From NCBI RefSeq assembly GCF_002196705.1, contig NZ_NADJ01000026.1:62001-126000 (forward strand): a DNA stretch of 64,000 nucleotides. Direction: 5' to 3'. Position numbers and translations under genes: made by a program. This document shows positions 11,655 through 47,124 of the stretch, piece after piece (within the stretch, counting starts at the first letter, position 1; every line of letters starts with the position of its first letter). The notes under the pieces were generated by a model that saw only the letters and a list, made by a program, of their open reading frames with translations, was not told the origin of the DNA and did no database searches. The DNA comes from Desulfosporosinus sp. FKB. GTDB taxonomy: Bacteria > Bacillota > Desulfitobacteriia > Desulfitobacteriales > Desulfitobacteriaceae.

Positions 11655-12461
11655 TTAAATTGCTAAATTCCTTCGTCGGAATACGAACCCTGAAAGAAGC
11701 AGACAAATTCCCGAAATACAGCTTAAGATAAGGCATTCTTTTGTCGGCAGCAATTTTCCCCGAAGAACTTCTTGAGGACGAAACAGACCAAAAGGCGTTA
11801 CGTTTTGCAAGCGGGAAAATCGTTCACTGAGAGATGACATGACGTCGAGCCCGTAAAAAATGACGGTTAATGCGCTTACCAAAGGAACAGATACTTCTTC
11901 TGAGTTTAGGGACACTCCAAAGAGCATACTGTAGCCACTGACCACCGTACTCAAGCAAAAGCCTAAGATTCCCATTCTGAAGAATTGCCACCTGTCAATG
12001 GTTACCTTAAAAAAGGCTGTTGCAGAATATATTCCTCCTACCGTGGCGCCGGTTAACAACATTAATTCCGTTAAAAGCACTCCAATTTGAGTATTGATAA
12101 TTTCCGAGCGGGACACTGGTGATGATAAAGGATAGGCCATAAAACCTTGTTCAAGCATATGCGCAGCCAGGGCATTTGATGCGCTTATTCCGTAAACGGA
12201 AATAAGCAGCGTCCAGAACCTTCCTAATAATTGCGCCGAGATATAGGATTCATAAGATATATCTGTCTCTTCCGCGGAAACGCCAAACGCTCGTTTAACC
12301 GATGTCGGAAAACTGTTGGGAAGATCTTCGATCACAGGTGATTCAATAAGAATCGGGTAAACCCAGGTTATCAGCCACTCATATAGCATCAGACTCAGGG
12401 AATAACCTATGACCTTTTTACCCTCATATTTAAGCATTGACCAATACAGTGCATCGTTCAT
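11655..12461 (-). CDS. ABC-2-like exporter permease (paralogue of 13556-14356)
   Basis: A membrane protein of 268 residues with about six hydrophobic segments, last gene of the cyclase operon. It is an evident paralogue of the other permease: MNDALYWSMLKYEGKK aligns with LNRALFRAMFKRQGKK at the N-terminus, MAYPLSSPVSR with MAYLLSSPAGR in the middle, LFRPQEVL with WFRPQEVL later, and both end in a basic FxRRxxL-type tail. The start is set at the ATG 12461, eight bases after the GAGG that overlaps the methyltransferase stop, and supported by that alignment. It would form a heterodimeric channel with its paralogue, driven by the ATPase at 14325-15278. Substrate unknown. Confidence 0.78.
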   Translation of the reverse strand: MNDALYWSMLKYEGKKVIGYSLSLMLYEWLITWVYPILIESPVIEDLPNSFPTSVKRAFGVSAEETDISYESYISAQLLGRFWTLLISVYGISASNALAAHMLEQGFMAYPLSSPVSRSEIINTQIGVLLTELMLLTGATVGGIYSATAFFKVTIDRWQFFRMGILGFCLSTVVSGYSMLFGVSLNSEEVSVPLVSALTVIFYGLDVMSSLSERFSRLQNVTPFGLFRPQEVLRGKLLPTKECLILSCISGICLLLSGFVFRRRNLAI

Positions 12462-12466
12462 CATCG

Positions 12467-13510
12467 TCACCTCGGCGTTTCTAGACACTCATCCGTTTTT
12501 CTGGCAAAGAAATAGTGGGACGTTCCCAAAGGCATGACCGCAATATCAACATCGCCGTATCCGGTTTGGAGCAATAAAGATCTAATTTCCTCTGTGGTGG
12601 GAAGTCCCTCGAAGCCCTGATGGCAGGCCAGAAAGAAGCTCATAAGATTTTGGGGAAGATGAGTCCGAAAGACTCGAACGGGAGAGCCCTTGCGTACTGC
12701 TGTTAATATCCCTACTTGGCCGCCCGGCTTTAAAAATTCTCTAATGCTTCCCAGAAGTTGAATTCGTTGTTCCTGGGTGAAGAAGTGGATACTATTGTTA
12801 AGCAGACAAAGATCGAAGTTGCCTAATTCCAGGAGAGACTCTTTCTGCTGGTCAACTAACGAGAAAATATCCTTACACAGAATTCGAATTCTTCCGTCAG
12901 ATTCTTTAACTTTTTCCTGCGCTCTTTCAGCAACGGCGGGATTCATTTCAATACCTACTCCGCATAGATCTGAAAATTCGCTGCTTAAAATCTTTAAATA
13001 GCGTCCTTCCCCACAGCCCAGATCCAAAACACTCTTCCATTGTTCTTTTTGGCACTTACTGCGCAAGTAGGGCCAGACGAATGGTTCAGAGACGATGGAC
13101 GCTTTGGCAATCAGTTCTTCCATTTCGTTCTCTAACGTTAATTTTGCACGTTGTTTGGTAATCAGACGAGGAAGTTCTGCAAAGCCTAAGGTCCAATGCT
13201 CTATGAGTTCCTTATATAAGGCCTCTAAGCCAAGGTTTCTATATTTATTAATAGCTTTCGCTAATTTCGTCGATTGAAAAAGATCGTTCTTCTTGGTTAG
13301 CAGTTCCATATAGTGAGCTTGTTCTAACCAATGATCTAACAAGATTTCGTCCCACTCCGGATGCATGATCATAAGTTCTTCTAAACTTCTTGCTGTTTCC
13401 ATCTCCGCCCAGAGATTCAGCTCTAAGCCGGTTTGAACCACCCACAAAAAACCAAGGTATTCCATCATACTGGTAGTTTTCGCAAGCAATGACAACATAC
13501 TTACGTCCAA
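12467..13510 (-). CDS. class I SAM-dependent methyltransferase with N-terminal helical domain
   Basis: A protein of 347 residues. The N-terminal part (about 1-120) is helical and resembles the dimerisation domain of small-molecule O-methyltransferases; the SAM site is the VLDLGCGEG loop at about 161-169, followed by an acidic GVGIEMN strand and an FDLCLLNNSIHFF motif IV region. Likely role: tailoring of the product of the neighbouring cyclase, or of a lipid, in the cytoplasm. The start is taken as the TTG at 13510, eight bases after AGAGGAG; a longer frame to 13537 runs through that site and an ATG follows at 13498. The stop codon lies inside the ribosome binding site of the next permease. 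Confidence 0.8.
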   Translation of the reverse strand: MDVSMLSLLAKTTSMMEYLGFLWVVQTGLELNLWAEMETARSLEELMIMHPEWDEILLDHWLEQAHYMELLTKKNDLFQSTKLAKAINKYRNLGLEALYKELIEHWTLGFAELPRLITKQRAKLTLENEMEELIAKASIVSEPFVWPYLRSKCQKEQWKSVLDLGCGEGRYLKILSSEFSDLCGVGIEMNPAVAERAQEKVKESDGRIRILCKDIFSLVDQQKESLLELGNFDLCLLNNSIHFFTQEQRIQLLGSIREFLKPGGQVGILTAVRKGSPVRVFRTHLPQNLMSFFLACHQGFEGLPTTEEIRSLLLQTGYGDVDIAVMPLGTSHYFFARKTDECLETPR

Positions 13511-13555
13511 GCGTCTCACTCCTCTATACTTTTCCAAGCAGATCGTTTCTTCGTT

Positions 13556-14356
13556 CTAAACGCAGAGGTCTTTCCTCTCAAAAACATAACAGGCAAGGGT
13601 CAAAAAGGCTGCTGAAAGGGTCATTAATGACACGATTTGCCAAGCCGGCGTGTCTCCTTCCAGTACTTCTTGAGGACGAAACCAACCAAAAATCGTAAGA
13701 TGTTTAACCCAGGAAAAGCGATCGTCAAGACTCGAAAAAATATCGAAAGCATACCCGGTAAACGTTAAGCAGGCAGCGCTCAGAATAACGTATTCTTCAT
13801 TATTAAAAAGGGTTGAAAAAAATAAACTATAGGAGCCTACGGTGAGAAACAGCGCAATGGCCAGGACTCCCAGTCTGAGATAAGCTTTTTTTGCCAACGA
13901 TAAGGCAAATAGTTTTGCCTCTGCCCATATCCCCAGCTCCGTCAGAAGCACCATAAGAACCAATCCACTGATGAGTACCGCAGCCTGGGTTGAAAAAACC
14001 TGCAAACGTCCTGCAGGAGAGGACAGCAAATAAGCCATTCCACCCTCGGAAACGTAGTGGGCTATTAATTCGTTAGCCGTACTTATGGTGTAAATCCCCA
14101 TAACCAGGACCCAAACCTGCCCGAAGCATTGACTGGCGGCAAAAGACTCGAAACGGCTGAGAGCATAATCTGAAGTCAACCTAAAAACTCGCGCCAATTT
14201 CGGCAAGTTCTGAGATAGTTTAGCCATACTACTCGACTGAGACAAGGTCGGAAAAACCCCAATCAACAAAAGATTATAAAGGGACAGACCCAAAGCATAG
14301 CTGCAGGTTTTTTTACCTTGTCTTTTAAACATGGCTCGAAATAATGCTCTGTTCAA
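13556..14356 (-). CDS. ABC-2-like exporter permease
   Basis: A membrane protein of 266 residues with about six hydrophobic stretches, partner of the ATPase encoded just upstream, whose end it overlaps by about 30 nt. I place the start at the TTG 14356, directly after a G-rich GGGGGGAGGAGG ribosome binding sequence, because from there LNRALFRAMFKRQGKK aligns without gaps to the start of its paralogue; frames from 14374 or 14332 are alternatives. The charged loop and the RPQEVL segment near the C-terminus are shared with the paralogue. Transport direction (export) is inferred from the ATPase type. Confidence 0.78.
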   Translation of the reverse strand: MNRALFRAMFKRQGKKTCSYALGLSLYNLLLIGVFPTLSQSSSMAKLSQNLPKLARVFRLTSDYALSRFESFAASQCFGQVWVLVMGIYTISTANELIAHYVSEGGMAYLLSSPAGRLQVFSTQAAVLISGLVLMVLLTELGIWAEAKLFALSLAKKAYLRLGVLAIALFLTVGSYSLFFSTLFNNEEYVILSAACLTFTGYAFDIFSSLDDRFSWVKHLTIFGWFRPQEVLEGDTPAWQIVSLMTLSAAFLTLACYVFERKDLCV

Positions 14357-15278
14357 CCTCCTCCCCCCTTTCATAGAACTGCATAAATGCTTCTTCTAAT
14401 TCCGTCATCCTCTGCAAAAAATCCTTAACCTGAACTTGAGCTAAAACCTTTAAAAGCGGATTTATATCACCCTGAATTTCAACAGAAACTTGATTATCAC
14501 CGATTCGGTCAGCTTTTAAACCGCTCTCACAGATAAGTTGAGCCTGTTCAGGGGTTTCAAGCGTAATTTCAAAAGTCCGGCGTTGTTCCTGCCGCAGTTT
14601 TTGAATTCCTTCGACAGCAGCCAACTCTCCTGCCCGAATGATCCCAACCCGGTCACATGTCCGTTCTATCTCCGGAAACATATGTGAAGAAATTAAGATG
14701 GTTTTTCCACGGTCCTTTTCCTCTAAAACTAAATCAATAAATACTTTTTGCATCAGGGGATCGAGACCGGAGGTAGGTTCATCCAAAATTAAAACCTCAG
14801 CATCCAACATCATCGTGTTAATAATCCCTAATTTTTGTTTCATCCCTTTGGACATTTTTTTGATAGGCTGTTTTAAGTTAAGATCCAAGCGCTCAGCTAA
14901 AGCATCGCGCCGCCTTGAAAAAACGGGACGGTTTCCATGCATTCCCGCCATTAAATTTAAAAACTCAAGACCGGACATTTCTTTGAGAAAATTCATTTCT
15001 CCGGGAAGATATCCCACGAAAGCTTTAACCTCCTTGGCCTCTTCCCAACAATCCAGGCCCTTGATCCGAGCAAATCCAACATCCGGTTTAAGAAAGCCCA
15101 TCAAATGGCGGATCACTGTGGTCTTCCCCGCACCATTGGGCCCTAACAAACCAAATACTTCCCCCTGTTGAACATGAAAGGTGACATCTTTAAGCCCTGC
15201 AATATGATTTGAGATTGCCTTTCTATTCTTTGGCCGAACTTTCGTATAAACTTTCGACAATCCTTTAACCTGAATCAT
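14325..15278 (-). CDS. ABC exporter ATP-binding protein (drug/lipid export type)
   Basis: An ATPase of 317 residues. Walker A GPNGAGKTT is at 46-54, the signature appears as MSKGMKQKLG at about 142-151 (SKGMK in place of LSGGQ, usual for bacitracin/CcmA-type exporters), and Walker B LILDEPTSGLDP at about 163-174. The C-terminal 80 residues form the accessory domain found in this exporter class (ERGEEVEQ tail). It begins three bases after the UbiB-like gene and overlaps the permease, so the operon is tightly coupled. Confidence 0.9.
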   Translation of the reverse strand: MIQVKGLSKVYTKVRPKNRKAISNHIAGLKDVTFHVQQGEVFGLLGPNGAGKTTVIRHLMGFLKPDVGFARIKGLDCWEEAKEVKAFVGYLPGEMNFLKEMSGLEFLNLMAGMHGNRPVFSRRRDALAERLDLNLKQPIKKMSKGMKQKLGIINTMMLDAEVLILDEPTSGLDPLMQKVFIDLVLEEKDRGKTILISSHMFPEIERTCDRVGIIRAGELAAVEGIQKLRQEQRRTFEITLETPEQAQLICESGLKADRIGDNQVSVEIQGDINPLLKVLAQVQVKDFLQRMTELEEAFMQFYERGEEVEQSIISSHV

Positions 15279-15281
15279 GGT

Positions 15282-16610
15282 TTAACACCTTCTTAGACCT
15301 AAATACTTTTTGAACCAATCTTTAAGGCTCCACTGCTCCCGAAGCCAAAAACGTCGTAATGGTTTAATTAATTCCGCTAAACTCATGGAAGGATCGAGTT
15401 CATGAATGACTCCTTCAAGGGTTAACAGCGATTTACCCAAGAGGATAAACTCAGGAGGAAATTCAAGCTCATATTGAAAAGCCAAGTTCATACAGTCGTT
15501 AATGGCCTGCCGCAAATCCACTTGGCCAAAGGGAACGTCCAAATGTCTTCGCTGTATTTCCGCAAGGTCCTGACATAAGCTTGCAAAGTCCACCCTTTTA
15601 GAAGAAACTGCCAAACGCATTAAAGACCCGGCCATGGCCTTAGAATTACGCCGTCTTAAGGCCAGGATTACATTCAATAATTGTCGTTTTAAACGCGGAT
15701 TCAAAACTCCTACAATTCCAAAATCGATAAATCCGATTCTTCCTCCGGATAAAACGATAATGTTTCCGGGATGGGGGTCCCCATGAAAAAAACCGTCTCT
15801 TAAAATTTGCAGGAGTAATGCCCGACCTAAAAGCTCAGCGATTGTTCTGCCATCATAAAGAGTTAAGATTTTTTGCCGCTCATTAAGTTTTATTCCCTCG
15901 AGATAGGACATAGTCAGAACCTTTTTGGTTGTATGAGTCCAAAAGATTTGCGGAAAAATTACTTGCGGATCTTTGCTGAATCCTTGAGCCATCCTCTCAG
16001 CGTTTTTGCCCTCCGCTAAATAATCCTGTTCTTCTTGCAGCCATCTCGAAAATTCCGCAAGCATTCCTCGGAGGAAATAGCGTTTTAAGTTTGGAAAGCG
16101 GTACTCCACGACAGGAATGATTTCTCTCAGAATTTCCAAATCCGTTTCAATGACTCCCGTATCGGGACGCTGGACTTTAACGGCAACCAGTTCACCGGAT
16201 TTCAGACGGCCGACATGGACTTGGCCAATCGAGGCCGATGCCAGGGGAGAAGGGGTAATGTCCTGAAAAAGTTCTTGGATTGGAGCTCCTAACTCCTGCT
16301 CAATGGTCCGGCTTATAAGAGCAAAGGGAACCTGAGAAACCCTGTCTTGAAGCTGCTCCAACTCATGAACAATGGGTATGGGGATAATATCCGGACGTGT
16401 GCTCGCGAACTGACCGAGTTTTATAAACGTTGGACCTAGCTCGCTCAAAACTCGACGAATCCGCTGGCCGAGATGGGCCATGACAACTTCATTTTTTCCC
16501 TGATTTTTTAGTCCCCTGCTTTCGAAGAGAATAAAGCCAAATCCATGGCGAATCAGCACGGAAACAATCTCTTGATATCGGCCAAAATGCTGAAAAATCA
16601 TTTCAAGCAC
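15282..16610 (-). CDS. UbiB/ADCK (ABC1) family atypical kinase
   Basis: A protein of 442 residues of the UbiB family, atypical protein-kinase-fold ATPases tied to isoprenoid lipid (ubiquinone, menaquinone) metabolism and stability. Visible hallmarks: the KLGQ motif at 64-67, the Ala-rich ASASIGQ loop at about 124-130 replacing the usual Gly loop, the Lys of VAVKVQ at 145, the catalytic FFHGDPHPGN segment near 272-281 and FIDFGI near 292. The start GTG at 16610 has AAGGAG ten bases upstream; an ATG lies at 16601. A UbiB member beside a terpene-cyclase-like gene supports an isoprenoid substrate for the operon. Unlike many homologues, no clear C-terminal transmembrane pair is present. Confidence 0.87.
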   Translation of the reverse strand: MLEMIFQHFGRYQEIVSVLIRHGFGFILFESRGLKNQGKNEVVMAHLGQRIRRVLSELGPTFIKLGQFASTRPDIIPIPIVHELEQLQDRVSQVPFALISRTIEQELGAPIQELFQDITPSPLASASIGQVHVGRLKSGELVAVKVQRPDTGVIETDLEILREIIPVVEYRFPNLKRYFLRGMLAEFSRWLQEEQDYLAEGKNAERMAQGFSKDPQVIFPQIFWTHTTKKVLTMSYLEGIKLNERQKILTLYDGRTIAELLGRALLLQILRDGFFHGDPHPGNIIVLSGGRIGFIDFGIVGVLNPRLKRQLLNVILALRRRNSKAMAGSLMRLAVSSKRVDFASLCQDLAEIQRRHLDVPFGQVDLRQAINDCMNLAFQYELEFPPEFILLGKSLLTLEGVIHELDPSMSLAELIKPLRRFWLREQWSLKDWFKKYLGLRRC

Positions 16611-16806
16611 GGGAAAAGCGCTCCTTTTTAACCTTCCTCAACGTCATAATCTATAATATTCCAAGATACCCAATTATGACTCTTTTTCTAGCCTGCACTA
16701 GGTATCATAGTTCTCACAATCATTTCAAGGAAACAAACAAACTATCCAGACCAAGATCTTCATTGCTAAGAATCCAGTCAGGATAGTATTGTTTTTGATC
16801 TTTAAC

Positions 16807-18399
16807 TCAAAAACCCAAAAACGACCGTTTGGGAGTATATATGATCTGGTATCGTTGTAAGGCCCGAATAGCGGTTAAAGCCGTTGTCAGGGGTTCCTCA
16901 TAATTCCAGCCCTTAGCATAGATTCCGCGGTAAGACGGCTGAAAGGAACCATTGTCTTTCTGCGCGCTGAGAAGGTTTTGGATGCCCTTATCCATGACCT
17001 CCTTGGGCACGAATCGGCTATACCTCCATAATCCCGATAAGGCCAACCCCGTCTCCACAACCGAGCCCCAGTCTCCTTGATTCTGAGCTTTGAGCAGAAA
17101 CTCCAATCCCTTTTTGCGAGCCACTTGAATATTGCGCGGAATTGTCCAGCGTTCCCAGCTAATTCTCCATTTGCTAAGAAGTTCAAGAGCCTGAGCCGTG
17201 CTGTAGACTCTCCCCTCAAACCAAGATCCCGGAAAGGCTCCCTGCTTATCCTGCTGAGAAATCAGCCAATTAAGTCCTCGCCAAATTGTTTCATCTTGCC
17301 CTCGAGAGGAACCCCATAACGCTTCCAAAACATGAATCGTCACATCAACACTTGAAATATAGACAGGAAATTCCGAAGAAATAGCGGGGGGTACTCCAGT
17401 AAAGCTGGGAAATGTTCCCCAGCTCCCATCAGAATTTTGCAGTCTTCTCAGCAGCTCTACACCCTGCTTATTCTGCTTTCCAAGCATCTGATGATAAGCC
17501 ATTAAGGCAACAGAGGTATCGTCCAGATCAGGATGAGTATGTGGAGGAGTGCTTCCGTAACTCCCGTCGGAATTCTGCCCTTGCTTAAGATAATCCATCG
17601 CCTGAGAAAGCCAAGGATACGTTTCATTCCTTTTCATCTGTTCGCCAAAAACACAAACTGCCCAGGCTACCGCCCAGACCTTAAGCTGATCGAAGGCCGG
17701 CCAGCCGCCGCTGGAGTACTGCTTGGAAACTAACCATTGCCCTGCTTTCTCCGCTCGTTTACTGTTGCCGCCCCGCCGCAGGAGAGCCAAGATACCTAAA
17801 CTTGTAGCCACAATATCCTCAGCCCAGGAACCATCAGACATTTGCGTTTCCAGAAGATATTGGATTCCTTGGCTGATTCCCTCTGGAGAATCGGAAGCGA
17901 GAATTGATGCTGCAACAACGACCGGGCGACCATAGAGAGGTAATTTGGCCAAAACATGGTCTTGAAGAATATTGGGAAGCAAGATTTCTTCCGGTGTAGG
18001 TCCTTCTAAACCAGGCACCACCCTTTGCCCTAACGATAATATCATCTCAGAAAATTGCCGGGCCTGAGATAAAAGCCGGATTTTAGCTCTCCAGCCCCCC
18101 TCACTTCCTTGTATAACTGAATTGACGATCTGAGTTATTTCCGGATCCGGCTGGTCGCCGGGAAATTTCCCCCAACCTCCGCGGCGATTTTGCCATAGCC
18201 ACTGAACTCCTTGCCTTTGGGCGCTTTCAAACCCTCTTCCTATTGCCAGAAGGGCAAGAGCGGCGAGGGCTGAAGCTCCCGGACTTGGAGATACTCCGTG
18301 CATTTCATCAAGATTTCCTGTTACGATTTGTTCTATGCCCTCAGCTACATAGCTCCTGGCTTTAGCAAGACATTCGTTAACATCACCTTTTAGCTCCAT
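16807..18399 (-). CDS. class II terpene cyclase-like protein (prenyltransferase/squalene-oxidase repeats)
   Basis: A protein of 530 residues built from alpha-alpha barrel repeats with QW-type motifs (QNSDGSYGS, QNSDGSWGT, QQDKQGAFPGSW, QNQGDWGS, QKDNGSF). It contains DLDDT at about 291-295, the D-x-D-D acid motif that protonates the substrate in squalene-hopene and class II diterpene cyclases. Squalene-hopene cyclases are usually about 630 residues with the motif near 375; length and motif position here are nearer the bacterial class II diterpene cyclases of about 500-520 residues. Product unknown; loss of activity with a structural role cannot be excluded. The ATG at 18399 follows AAAGGAGAGG. 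It is the first gene of the operon that continues with UbiB, exporter and methyltransferase, 196 nt before UbiB. Confidence 0.8.
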   Translation of the reverse strand: MELKGDVNECLAKARSYVAEGIEQIVTGNLDEMHGVSPSPGASALAALALLAIGRGFESAQRQGVQWLWQNRRGGWGKFPGDQPDPEITQIVNSVIQGSEGGWRAKIRLLSQARQFSEMILSLGQRVVPGLEGPTPEEILLPNILQDHVLAKLPLYGRPVVVAASILASDSPEGISQGIQYLLETQMSDGSWAEDIVATSLGILALLRRGGNSKRAEKAGQWLVSKQYSSGGWPAFDQLKVWAVAWAVCVFGEQMKRNETYPWLSQAMDYLKQGQNSDGSYGSTPPHTHPDLDDTSVALMAYHQMLGKQNKQGVELLRRLQNSDGSWGTFPSFTGVPPAISSEFPVYISSVDVTIHVLEALWGSSRGQDETIWRGLNWLISQQDKQGAFPGSWFEGRVYSTAQALELLSKWRISWERWTIPRNIQVARKKGLEFLLKAQNQGDWGSVVETGLALSGLWRYSRFVPKEVMDKGIQNLLSAQKDNGSFQPSYRGIYAKGWNYEEPLTTALTAIRALQRYQIIYTPKRSFLGF

Positions 18400-18426
18400 A
18401 GCACCCTCTCCTTTAAAGCATCCCAT

Positions 18427-18734
18427 AATATGATTTATGTTTGGAGAGGGATAATCGTTCCAATAGTCTTCTTTTCCTTTACTTATGTAGAAACATTGGA
18501 TTTAGGTAACTCCTTAAGCGAGCTATTACTAAAGGTATCAATAATAAAAAAAGGTTTTTCAGTCTACACCGAAAAACCTTTTTCAAAATTTATTCCTTCT
18601 TAACTTCTTAAACTAATTAATTTCTTAAACTTATTAACTTTTATTTACGCACTTGATTACATTGTTGTATTTATAGTTCTTCATTCAACGTAAGACTCCC
18701 ACCACTACAAGTGGAAGTGGTTCCCATACCGAGT
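18427..18734. other. 308-nt gene-free region between topB and the cyclase operon
   Basis: It holds the terminator at 18548-18583, a small imperfect hairpin at about 18692-18720 (CCACT/AGTGG core), and presumably the promoter of the cyclase operon, for which I find no convincing -35/-10 pair. Confidence 0.5.
18548..18583 (-). terminator. bidirectional intrinsic terminator downstream of topB
   Basis: Perfect 13-nt arms AAAAAGGTTTTTC (18548-18560) and GAAAAACCTTTTT (18571-18583) with a 10-nt loop. The arms carry their own A/T tracts, so it can work on both strands; the minus-strand reading ends the topB/ybaK/aspartate kinase transcript. Confidence 0.8.
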
Positions 18735-43825: not shown

Positions 43826-45346
43826 ATGAAAAGATCTAAATTGATCAAAATCACGTTGTTAACCGTATTTTTAATTCTCATGATTGCTACAGTAGCCTTG
43901 GCAGCCGGTGATCCCTCGGGAGCAAACACCGGAGGAATCGCCGATATCGCCGCGGCCAAAGCTGGAGACCCAACATTATCGGAAGTTGCCGCTCAAGTTG
44001 GTAAGAACAAAATTGGGATCAATTTTGTTTGGACCTTACTTACGGGTTTTATGGTTTTCTTCATGCAAGCAGGGTTTGCCTTAGTTGAAGCCGGTTTTAC
44101 CCGTGCAAAAAATGCCGCTCATACCATGGCTATGAACTTAATGGTCTTCTTGGTGGGAGCTATCGGTTATTATCTGGTAGGATTCGGTTTGATGTTTGGC
44201 GGTGTCGGTGCAGTGGGCGCCTTAGGCGGAACACCGCCCCTCACCGGCGAATTTGCTGTTAATGGTTGGGGCTTGTTCGGTCATACAGGTTTTTTCCTAA
44301 CTTCAGGAGGAACTTATGACGTGGGAGTATTTATTCTCTTCCTGTTCCAAATGGTATTTATGGATACCGCAGTGACTATACCAACAGGAGCACAGGCAGA
44401 GCGAATCAAGTTCTCCGCAGTTGTCATTGGCAGCTTCTTTATTTCAATGATTCTTTACCCGATTTATGGAAACTGGGTTTGGGGCGGCGGCTGGCTTTCT
44501 CAAATCGGTTCACACTGGGGCTTGGGACACGGTGCTGTAGACTTTGCTGGTTCCGGAGTAGTACACAGCATCGGTGGAGGCTGTGCCTTGGCAGCGGCCT
44601 TAGTATTGGGGCCTCGTATTGGAAAGTATGTTAACGGAAAAGTCAACGTTATTCCCGGCCACGATATACCGATGGCGATTCTAGGCACCATTATCTTGTT
44701 CTTCGGATGGTTCGGCTTTAATCCCGGCAGTACTTTAGCCGGAACGGACTTACGCATTTCCGTGGTCGCTGTTAATACCATGTTAGCCGGTGCCGTGGGC
44801 GGCTTTGTAGCCATGATGATTATGTGGATTAAGTATAAAAAGCCAGACCCTTCTATGATGTGTAACGGTACTTTAGCAGGCTTAGTGGCGATTACTGCTC
44901 CTTCTGCCTTCGTCTCAGTCAATTCCGCTGTTCTTATTGGAGCAATAGCCGGGGCCCTTGTAGTAGCCAGCGTACTCTTTATCGATCGCAAACTGAAAAT
45001 TGATGACCCTGTGGGAGCTATCTCCGTTCATATGGTTAATGGCATCTGGGGCGTCATCAGTGTCGGGATCTTTGCCGACGGCACCTACGGAGATGGCCTC
45101 AACGGAGTTGCCGGAGGAGTAACCGGCCTGCTTTATGGAAATGTCGGGCAGTTTGGCGCCCAATTGATCGATGCTGCAGTAGTTCTGGTTTGGAGTATTG
45201 GCTTGTCTTATATCTTCTTTAAGATTCTCAATGCTACTCTTGGTATGCGTGTAAAACCGGAGGATGAATTAGCCGGATTGGATATTCCGGAAATGGGCAT
45301 GTTAGCTTATCCAGAATTCGTCATGCAGTCTTCCACCGGTGAATAA
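43826..45346 (+). CDS. amt: ammonium transporter with cleavable signal peptide
   Basis: An Amt/Rh-family channel of 506 residues. An N-terminal signal (residues 1-27, ending in LAAGD) and a short extracellular segment precede eleven transmembrane helices. The conserved segments AGFALVEAGFTRAKNAA, GAGAxxx-like FNPGST and VHMVNGIWG, and the twin pore His regions (GSGVVHSIGG and VHMVNG), are present. Together with the PII gene 60 nt downstream this is the usual amtB-glnK pairing, in which the PII T-loop plugs the channel. It imports ammonium across the cytoplasmic membrane. Confidence 0.95.
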   Translation: MKRSKLIKITLLTVFLILMIATVALAAGDPSGANTGGIADIAAAKAGDPTLSEVAAQVGKNKIGINFVWTLLTGFMVFFMQAGFALVEAGFTRAKNAAHTMAMNLMVFLVGAIGYYLVGFGLMFGGVGAVGALGGTPPLTGEFAVNGWGLFGHTGFFLTSGGTYDVGVFILFLFQMVFMDTAVTIPTGAQAERIKFSAVVIGSFFISMILYPIYGNWVWGGGWLSQIGSHWGLGHGAVDFAGSGVVHSIGGGCALAAALVLGPRIGKYVNGKVNVIPGHDIPMAILGTIILFFGWFGFNPGSTLAGTDLRISVVAVNTMLAGAVGGFVAMMIMWIKYKKPDPSMMCNGTLAGLVAITAPSAFVSVNSAVLIGAIAGALVVASVLFIDRKLKIDDPVGAISVHMVNGIWGVISVGIFADGTYGDGLNGVAGGVTGLLYGNVGQFGAQLIDAAVVLVWSIGLSYIFFKILNATLGMRVKPEDELAGLDIPEMGMLAYPEFVMQSSTGE

Positions 45347-45371
45347 GTTCAGGCAGTTCAGGTAGAATTAA

Positions 45372-45746
<375 letters not shown>

Positions 45747-45766
45747 CGATGGTAAAGGTTAGAGAA

Positions 45767-45796
45767 GGCTGATTATTTACGAATAAATAATCAGCC
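45767..45796 (+). terminator. intrinsic terminator after glnK
   Basis: Perfect 13-nt arms GGCTGATTATTTA (45767-45779) and TAAATAATCAGCC (45784-45796), a 4-nt loop, then GCCTTTATTTTAG. Confidence 0.88.
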
Positions 45797-45840
45797 GCCT
45801 TTATTTTAGCTTCTTGCCAACCTGGAAAGGAGAGCAGAAT

Positions 45841-47124
45841 GTGACATTAGCTGAGCCTTTAGTAATAACCCTAGTCATCTTCCTTTTAACCTACAGCCTC
45901 ATAATCACAGAAACTCTTAACCGAACCGTTGTTGCTTTAATTGGCGCTAGTTTAATACTTTTCGCTAATGTTCTAAATCAGGAACAAGCAATTCAAGCCA
46001 TTGACTTCAATACAATTGGTCTGCTAATTGGAATGATGATCATTGTTGGTGTAACTCGTCGAACGGGAGTTTTTGAATATATGGCTATCAAAGCCGCCAA
46101 GCTTGCTCAAGGTGACCCAGTATTGATTTTAGTGGCTCTTTCTACAGTAACGGCAATAACTTCGTCATTACTTGATAATGTAACAACGGTTTTGCTGATA
46201 GTACCCGTAACATTTTCCATTTGTTCTGAGTTGTCTATCGATCCCATACCTTTTCTTATCAGCCAAATCCTCGCCTCGAATATCGGCGGTACCGCAACTT
46301 TAATCGGAGATCCTCCCAATATTATGATTGGCAGTGCTTCCGGCCTGAGCTTCCTGGATTTTGCTCTAAATCTCTTCATCCCCATTGCCGCTACATTCTT
46401 AGCAACCATGCTGATTTTACGGGTTATCTATCGTAAAAAGCTAAAAGCATCGGAACTTGCCAGGGCTCGAATTATGGATTTGCCGGAACTCGAAGCTATA
46501 AAAGATTTTGCTTTGCTAAAAAAGTCTCTGTTCGTCCTAAGTCTGACAATTTTAGGCTTCCTATTGCATAAAGTACTTAATTTCGAACCAGCGACTATTG
46601 CCATAGGGGGAGCCACGCTTTTATTGTTAATTACAAAGGAAGAACCTGAAGATATCTTTCTGACTATCGAATGGCCGACTCTCTTTTTCTTTGCAGGCTT
46701 ATTTATCATTATTGGCGCTTTAGATCAAGTCGGAGTGATTGAATGGGTTGCCAGGAGATCTATTGAAGCTACAGGCGGAGTTATCTCTGCTACGACGATG
46801 TTAATCTTGTGGTTGTCCGCTGTTGCGTCTGCATTTATCGATAACATCCCTTTCGTCGCTACAATGATTCCGCTTATTCAAAAGATGGGGCAAATCGGAG
46901 GAATTACAAACTTGAAACCCTTATGGTGGGCTTTATCCTTGGGAGCATGCTTGGGTGGCAACGGGACACTTATTGGAGCTTCTGCTAACGTCATTGTAGC
47001 AGGGCTAGCTGAAAAAAACGGAGTTATCCTCACTTACAAAGGTTTCCTTAAAATAGCTTTCCCTTTAATGATTTTGTCGGTTATCATTTCCACTGTTTAT
47101 ATTTTCGCAGTATATCTCAGGTAG
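45841..47124 (+). CDS. ArsB/NhaD-type ion transporter
   Basis: A membrane carrier of 427 residues of the ion transporter superfamily, about eleven helices. The two inverted repeats each carry the family loops: GGTATLIGDPPNIMIG near 160-175 and GGNGTLIGASANVIVAG near 375-391. These fit NhaD/ArsB/CitM-like carriers of the P-protein type; the ion (Na+/H+, arsenite, or a carboxylate) cannot be read from sequence. The start is the GTG at 45841 with AAAGGAG upstream. It stands alone after the glnK terminator. Confidence 0.87.
   Translation: MTLAEPLVITLVIFLLTYSLIITETLNRTVVALIGASLILFANVLNQEQAIQAIDFNTIGLLIGMMIIVGVTRRTGVFEYMAIKAAKLAQGDPVLILVALSTVTAITSSLLDNVTTVLLIVPVTFSICSELSIDPIPFLISQILASNIGGTATLIGDPPNIMIGSASGLSFLDFALNLFIPIAATFLATMLILRVIYRKKLKASELARARIMDLPELEAIKDFALLKKSLFVLSLTILGFLLHKVLNFEPATIAIGGATLLLLITKEEPEDIFLTIEWPTLFFFAGLFIIIGALDQVGVIEWVARRSIEATGGVISATTMLILWLSAVASAFIDNIPFVATMIPLIQKMGQIGGITNLKPLWWALSLGACLGGNGTLIGASANVIVAGLAEKNGVILTYKGFLKIAFPLMILSVIISTVYIFAVYLR

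Follow-up and report, generated by a model that had tools for sequence, protein, structure and literature searches.

The six genes at positions 11655-18399 on the minus strand of a 64,000-nucleotide stretch of the Desulfosporosinus sp. FKB genome (the window, G000:C19:62001-126000, with G000 being this genome) are, on balance, probably a module for terpenoid lipids in the lineage of Desulfosporosinus, a bacterium of soils and sediments, by which an isoprenoid other than squalene would be cyclised, methylated and exported with the assistance of a UbiB-family protein. The observations behind this reading are the gene content itself, the computed fold and catalytic residues of the cyclase, the recurrent linkage of cyclase, exporter and methyltransferase (MT) genes, the absence of squalene synthase and a conserved element upstream of the cyclase gene. 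All six open reading frames (ORFs) lie at the place and on the strand given for them in an earlier note made from the letters of the sequence; in the order of transcription they are:

16807-18399, minus strand: predicted class II terpene cyclase (530 aa from ATG 18399; ORF open to 18426)
15282-16610, minus strand: short UbiB-family atypical kinase/ATPase (442 aa; KLGQ, ASAS loop, HGD, DFG)
14325-15278, minus strand: ATP-binding cassette (ABC) transporter ATPase, DrrA-like (ABC_tran 2.3e-26)
13556-14374, minus strand: ABC-2 permease 1 (probable start TTG 14356)
12467-13537, minus strand: small-molecule S-adenosylmethionine-dependent MT with an N-terminal helical domain (probable start TTG 13510)
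11655-12488, minus strand: ABC-2 permease 2 (probable start ATG 12464)

The likely cyclase start, ATG 18399, is the end coordinate given in the earlier note. Pfam places the products in the families SQHop_cyclase_C (cyclase, 6.6e-23), ABC1/UbiB (9.9e-70), Methyltransf_25 (6e-15) and ABC2_membrane_2 (both permeases, marginally above cut-off), in agreement with the two-permease exporter and MT proposed earlier. The coupling of ATPase, permease, MT and permease genes was likewise borne out, with a gap of 3 bp between UbiB and ATPase, an overlap of ~30-50 bp between ATPase and permease 1 and close spacing at the permease 1-MT and MT-permease 2 junctions, but the tight spacing claimed for all six genes does not extend to the cyclase, as 196 bp with a weak terminator-like hairpin (16833-16814) separate it from UbiB.

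The DLDDT motif that had marked the first product as cyclase-like lies at residues 291-295. In the alignment with the squalene-hopene cyclase (SHC) of Alicyclobacillus it falls on DVDDT (D374/D376/D377), with D291, D293 and D294 corresponding to D374, D376 and D377, and H356 to the relay histidine H451. Among 18 homologues with identity down to 37%, DLDDT is invariant and the DVTxH histidine is conserved, and the cyclase also has many QW-type repeats. The AlphaFold model (predicted local distance difference test, pLDDT, 84.8; predicted template modelling score, pTM, 0.88) falls inside the class II terpene cyclase fold. Its best structural match is the drimenyl-diphosphate synthase SsDMS (Z 32.4, 444 residues, 3.0 Å); SHC gives Z 28.6 over 468 residues, and MstE, Rv3377c and the bacterial ent-copalyl-diphosphate synthase give Z 25.8-28.1. 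By sequence profile the ranking places hopene cyclase first (106 bits) and drimenyl-diphosphate synthase second (61 bits). Because the fold matches and the catalytic residues are intact, with both the DxDD acid motif and the fold of the SHC/oxidosqualene cyclase superfamily present, the protein is a class II terpene cyclase as far as its predicted structure goes. Activity on an isoprenoid is its predicted function, and the substrate is not readable from sequence or fold.

Hopanoid synthesis from squalene was rejected, the cyclase reaching 46.3 bits with the curated hopene-cyclase model TIGR01507, whose cut-off is 431.1, and squalene/phytoene synthase being found in none of the 74 genomes of the order, in a search where the positive controls worked; genome-wide counts here and below come from searches of the genomes. 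The cyclase is like Alicyclobacillus SHC and the bacterial hopanoid clusters in its DxDD acid, relay histidine and QW-type repeats, and SHC is its best sequence match, but it differs from them in its score and in the lack of squalene synthase in its order. It is possible, though rather unlikely, that the enzyme works as the drimenyl- and copalyl-diphosphate synthases do, cyclising a prenyl diphosphate with retention of the diphosphate and leaving the product to other enzymes before methylation and export. The drimenyl-diphosphate synthases are its closest structures (Z 31-32 over 440-451 aligned residues, higher than for SHC), and SsDMS from Streptomyces showdoensis is similar in length and acid-motif position; the genome also has several prenyl-diphosphate synthases, and a HepT-like gene lies near the MT-cyclase-ATPase genes of locus L058. 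However, SHC outscores drimenyl-diphosphate synthase by sequence profile, the QW-type repeats are many and the SHC-type DVTxH histidine is unmatched in the alignment with SsDMS, to which the identity is ~19%. We know of no linkage of SsDMS to UbiB or ABC genes.

The strongest evidence for a common function is that the same kinds of gene recur beside one another in separate arrangements. The cyclase of the nearest named relative, D. acididurans, is 95% identical, and a single-sequence scan of contigs returned two close relatives only. In the genome searches the cyclase is present in 16/16 high-quality genomes of the genus and 30/46 of the order, while in a 398-genome sample of the phylum it occurs in this order and one other family only. 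No relatives were found in the plasmids and viral contigs searched, and a mobile or phage origin was rejected on this ground. The exact six-gene order is common to four genomes (the window, L064/L001, L037 and L063/L002); since it is kept in the three further genomes at 66-95% identity, the arrangement is not due to chance. The neighbourhood is conserved in close relatives and re-formed in distant ones, and with the cyclase model inside the class II fold neither outcome that the earlier note had named as a refutation was obtained. The exact order stays within four close genomes, and a fixed six-gene operon across the Clostridia was rejected.

In other Desulfosporosinus, where the cassette stands apart from the cyclase, it is found as UbiB-ATPase-permease 1-MT-permease 2 (L070, L071), in the same order without a recognised MT (L081, L082, L094, with L082 also lacking one permease in its map), or as UbiB-MT-ATPase-permease and variants of this (L067-L069, L083-L091, L095, L110-L112). 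In another family, f3, an ATPase (50-53% identical) and a permease (34-37%) directly follow the cyclase in L055, L056, L057 and L059, and the order in L058 is MT-cyclase-ATPase. Cyclase and permease are both present in six f3 genomes and both absent from 19 (Fisher 5.6e-6, with no correction for phylogeny), and single f3 genera include genomes of either kind. Two remnants were also detected. In G022, which has an intact cyclase at another place, a decayed cyclase fragment (L083:6043-6162; 60% identity, one stop) lies 234 bp upstream of the cassette UbiB, and in G049 (L092:8740-9440) the N-terminus of a cyclase adjoins the C-terminus of a permease, which is what would remain if a deletion had run through an operon of cyclase, ATPase and permease.

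Several features weigh against a single module. Most Desulfosporosinus genomes have the cyclase, among unrelated genes, and the cassette at separate loci; the Desulfitobacterium-like G032 and G033 have ATPase and permease without a detected MT, G034 has no permease, and in G042 and G046 the cyclase is not beside the MT and this permease is missing. In the window itself, the 196-bp gap and the hairpin at the cyclase end make a single transcript of cyclase and UbiB doubtful. The exporter could also serve some other compound. A rival view would make the cyclase and the UbiB/MT/ABC cassette functionally unrelated neighbours and the exporter a drug-efflux pump, as the DrrA-like ATPase and the separate loci in most of the genus would allow. 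Such a view is very improbable given the recurrent adjacency in separate arrangements and the joint presence or absence in family f3.

The cluster UbiB, the UbiB member of the earlier note by its family and motifs (KLGQ 64, ASAS 124 in the A-rich loop, HGD 276, DFG 296), is a dedicated short paralogue. The genome has in addition a 559-residue housekeeping UbiB, to which the 442-residue cluster form is 42% identical and which has the C-terminal transmembrane hairpin that the cluster form lacks. With the UbiB equivalog model TIGR01982 the cluster protein scores 382 bits, below the cut-off of 487.55. All cassette UbiBs (436-464 residues) form one clade (99/98) separate from the housekeeping forms, with an orphan UbiB (L146, G016:C149) falling inside it, and a short UbiB within the cassette was seen in this genus only. 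The tree and the length reject a housekeeping UbiB relocated beside the cyclase. Like the UbiB/COQ8 atypical kinases, the protein has KxGQ, an A-rich loop, HGD and DFG; it differs from them in its short length without the membrane hairpin, in having ASAS for AAAS and in its cassette-specific clade. As a separate observation, G071, G072 and G073 have 9 to 13 UbiB/ABC1 kinase matches per genome, compared with 0 to 8 in the other genomes of the order.

The UbiB family has its precedent in ubiquinone synthesis. In a meroterpenoid route, the side chain cyclised would be that of menaquinone or of some other prenylated aromatic, whose ring the MT would modify, and UbiB would act as in ubiquinone synthesis. 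One of the structural matches, MstE, is a merosterol cyclase and the genome has an apparent menaquinone (futalosine) gene set, but the route is very unlikely as the cluster has no prenyltransferase or aromatic-ring gene, no short UbiB lies beside the f3 cyclase-ABC loci and the MT is under every cut-off of the UbiE/UbiG models.

The model of the MT (METHYLTRANSFERASE; pLDDT 79.3) resembles small-molecule O-/C-methyltransferases bearing an N-terminal helical domain. Its substrate is not told by this resemblance. The two permeases are 35% identical and are consistent with a heterodimer, while the single-permease loci would form a homodimer. The ATPase scores 188.7 bits against a cut-off of 312.45 with the curated drrA model TIGR01188. 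The exporter is like the DrrAB-type ABC-2 exporters in its ATPase and ABC-2 permease families, but has a pair of permeases whose genes flank that of an MT, and an ATPase below the drrA cut-off.

As the earlier note had stated, no prenyl-diphosphate synthase is present in the window, all five PF00348 matches of the genome being on other contigs. One is a HepT-like gene near the futalosine-type menaquinone genes, another is convergent with a DUF2600/YtpB synthase and there are three others. The source of the precursor, left outside the window by the earlier note, is narrowed by the lack of squalene synthase in the order and by this DUF2600/YtpB synthase (G000:C27:274472-275455, E 3.8e-127), which with the convergent long-chain prenyl-diphosphate synthase makes up the pair at L120:6404-8463 (G000:C27:274403-276462). 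The pair is conserved across the family, including genomes that lack the cyclase (G036), and DUF2600 is found in 45/74 genomes of the order and in nearly all family members. In Bacillus subtilis, YtpB makes tetraprenyl-curcumene, which SqhC converts to sporulene, with HepS/HepT upstream (PMC11708026).

An anaerobe version of this pathway is a specific form of the terpenoid-lipid reading and a real, though doubtful, possibility. A long-chain prenyl synthase and a YtpB-type enzyme would supply a C35 tetraprenyl-curcumene-like polyprene, from which the cyclase would form a polycyclic C35 sesquarterpene of spores. Its support is the B. subtilis precedent, the DUF2600 gene in this genome and nearly all of the family, convergent with a long-chain prenyl synthase, the lack of squalene synthase in the order and the sigma-K-like element described below. 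Against it, five high-quality genomes (G046, G058, G069, G072, G073) have the cyclase without DUF2600 and three (G036, G038, G045) have the reverse, the YtpB pair is unlinked to the cyclase and the cyclase is ~100 residues shorter than SHC. A sporulene-like route is plausible in Desulfosporosinus, but because several carriers lack DUF2600 and others show the reverse it cannot apply to the cyclase family throughout. The resemblance to the Bacillus system is that of a spore former with an SHC-family cyclase, DUF2600 and long-chain prenyl synthases in its genome; the differences are the shorter cyclase, its linkage to UbiB, MT and ABC exporter genes, and the carriers without YtpB.

Three further features bear on the expression of the cyclase gene:

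18423-18462, minus strand: promoter-like element TGGAAC-N17-CATANNTNATANTATGG (40 bp; conserved, found upstream of this cyclase only)
18547-18584, minus strand: terminator-like hairpin in the gap between the topoisomerase III gene and the cyclase gene (consensus match only)
16814-16833, minus strand: weak terminator-like hairpin at the 3' end of the cyclase gene (consensus match only; the scan count is near the shuffle mean)

The upstream hairpin (18584-18547) sets topoisomerase III apart. The element TGGAAC-N17-CATANNTNATANTATGG is kept upstream of the cyclase while the flanks vary, with AC-N17-CATA having constant spacing in 25/25 loci of the genus and recurring at L055, L057 and L059. Its strict pattern occurs in 15/46 family genomes (Desulfosporosinus), one copy each and always at the cyclase, and the reversed control gave 0. 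The element resembles the sigma-K consensus [a/c]AC[a/c]-N16-CATA-N3-TA, as quoted in PMC5749712, with one or two mismatches. The mismatches, which count against the assignment, are N3-CA or N3-AA in place of N3-TA, and the fourth base of the -35 varies. The resemblance suggests mother-cell expression of the cyclase during sporulation, probably late; such timing would suggest a spore-envelope lipid as the product. The cyclase GAAC-N17-CATA and the cassette [GT]TCAC-N16-CAT[TA]A (6/11 type-2 loci) are only partly alike and a promoter common to both is not claimed. A cyclase-type element was looked for at the YtpB pair and not found.

For the terpenoid-lipid module favoured here, we infer the following order of steps. 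With its DxDD acid the cyclase would protonate an isoprenoid of long chain length other than squalene and fold it into a polycycle, to which, or to a related intermediate, the MT would add a methyl group. The short UbiB may spend ATP in helping the hydrophobic lipid out of the membrane to soluble enzymes or to the exporter, and the ABC ATPase with its two permeases would move the finished lipid through the membrane or release it from there. This cyclisation, methylation and export is the course which the earlier note had proposed. More tentatively, and with rather less than even confidence, we suggest that the product represents a new class, an exported methylated polycyclic polyprenoid of anaerobic spore formers, which a short SHC-type cyclase would build from a precursor other than squalene, and not necessarily from the product of YtpB, and which a dedicated UbiB ATPase of soluble type and an ABC-2 exporter would deliver. 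UbiB would here be coupled for the first time to a terpene cyclase and to an exporter.

The components are of known kinds and their combination appears undescribed, as no system of the same composition was found in the open-licence library searched, which is weak evidence of absence. Little is known of the terpenoid lipids of spore formers outside Bacillus, and hopanoid-like compounds serve as geological markers of past life. If the reading is true, both the spore-lipid and the geological-marker fields would gain from a cyclase that does not depend on squalene in an anaerobic lineage of wide occurrence. What UbiB proteins do biochemically is not settled, and a dedicated short UbiB tied to one defined lipid pathway would make their role testable in a simple setting.

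Of the surroundings, it may be mentioned that no structured RNA was found within the window by Rfam and that ~600 bp separate the last gene of the cluster from a livK-like gene. The guanine-cytosine (GC) skew, mostly negative in the rest of the window, becomes positive at 44001-46000.

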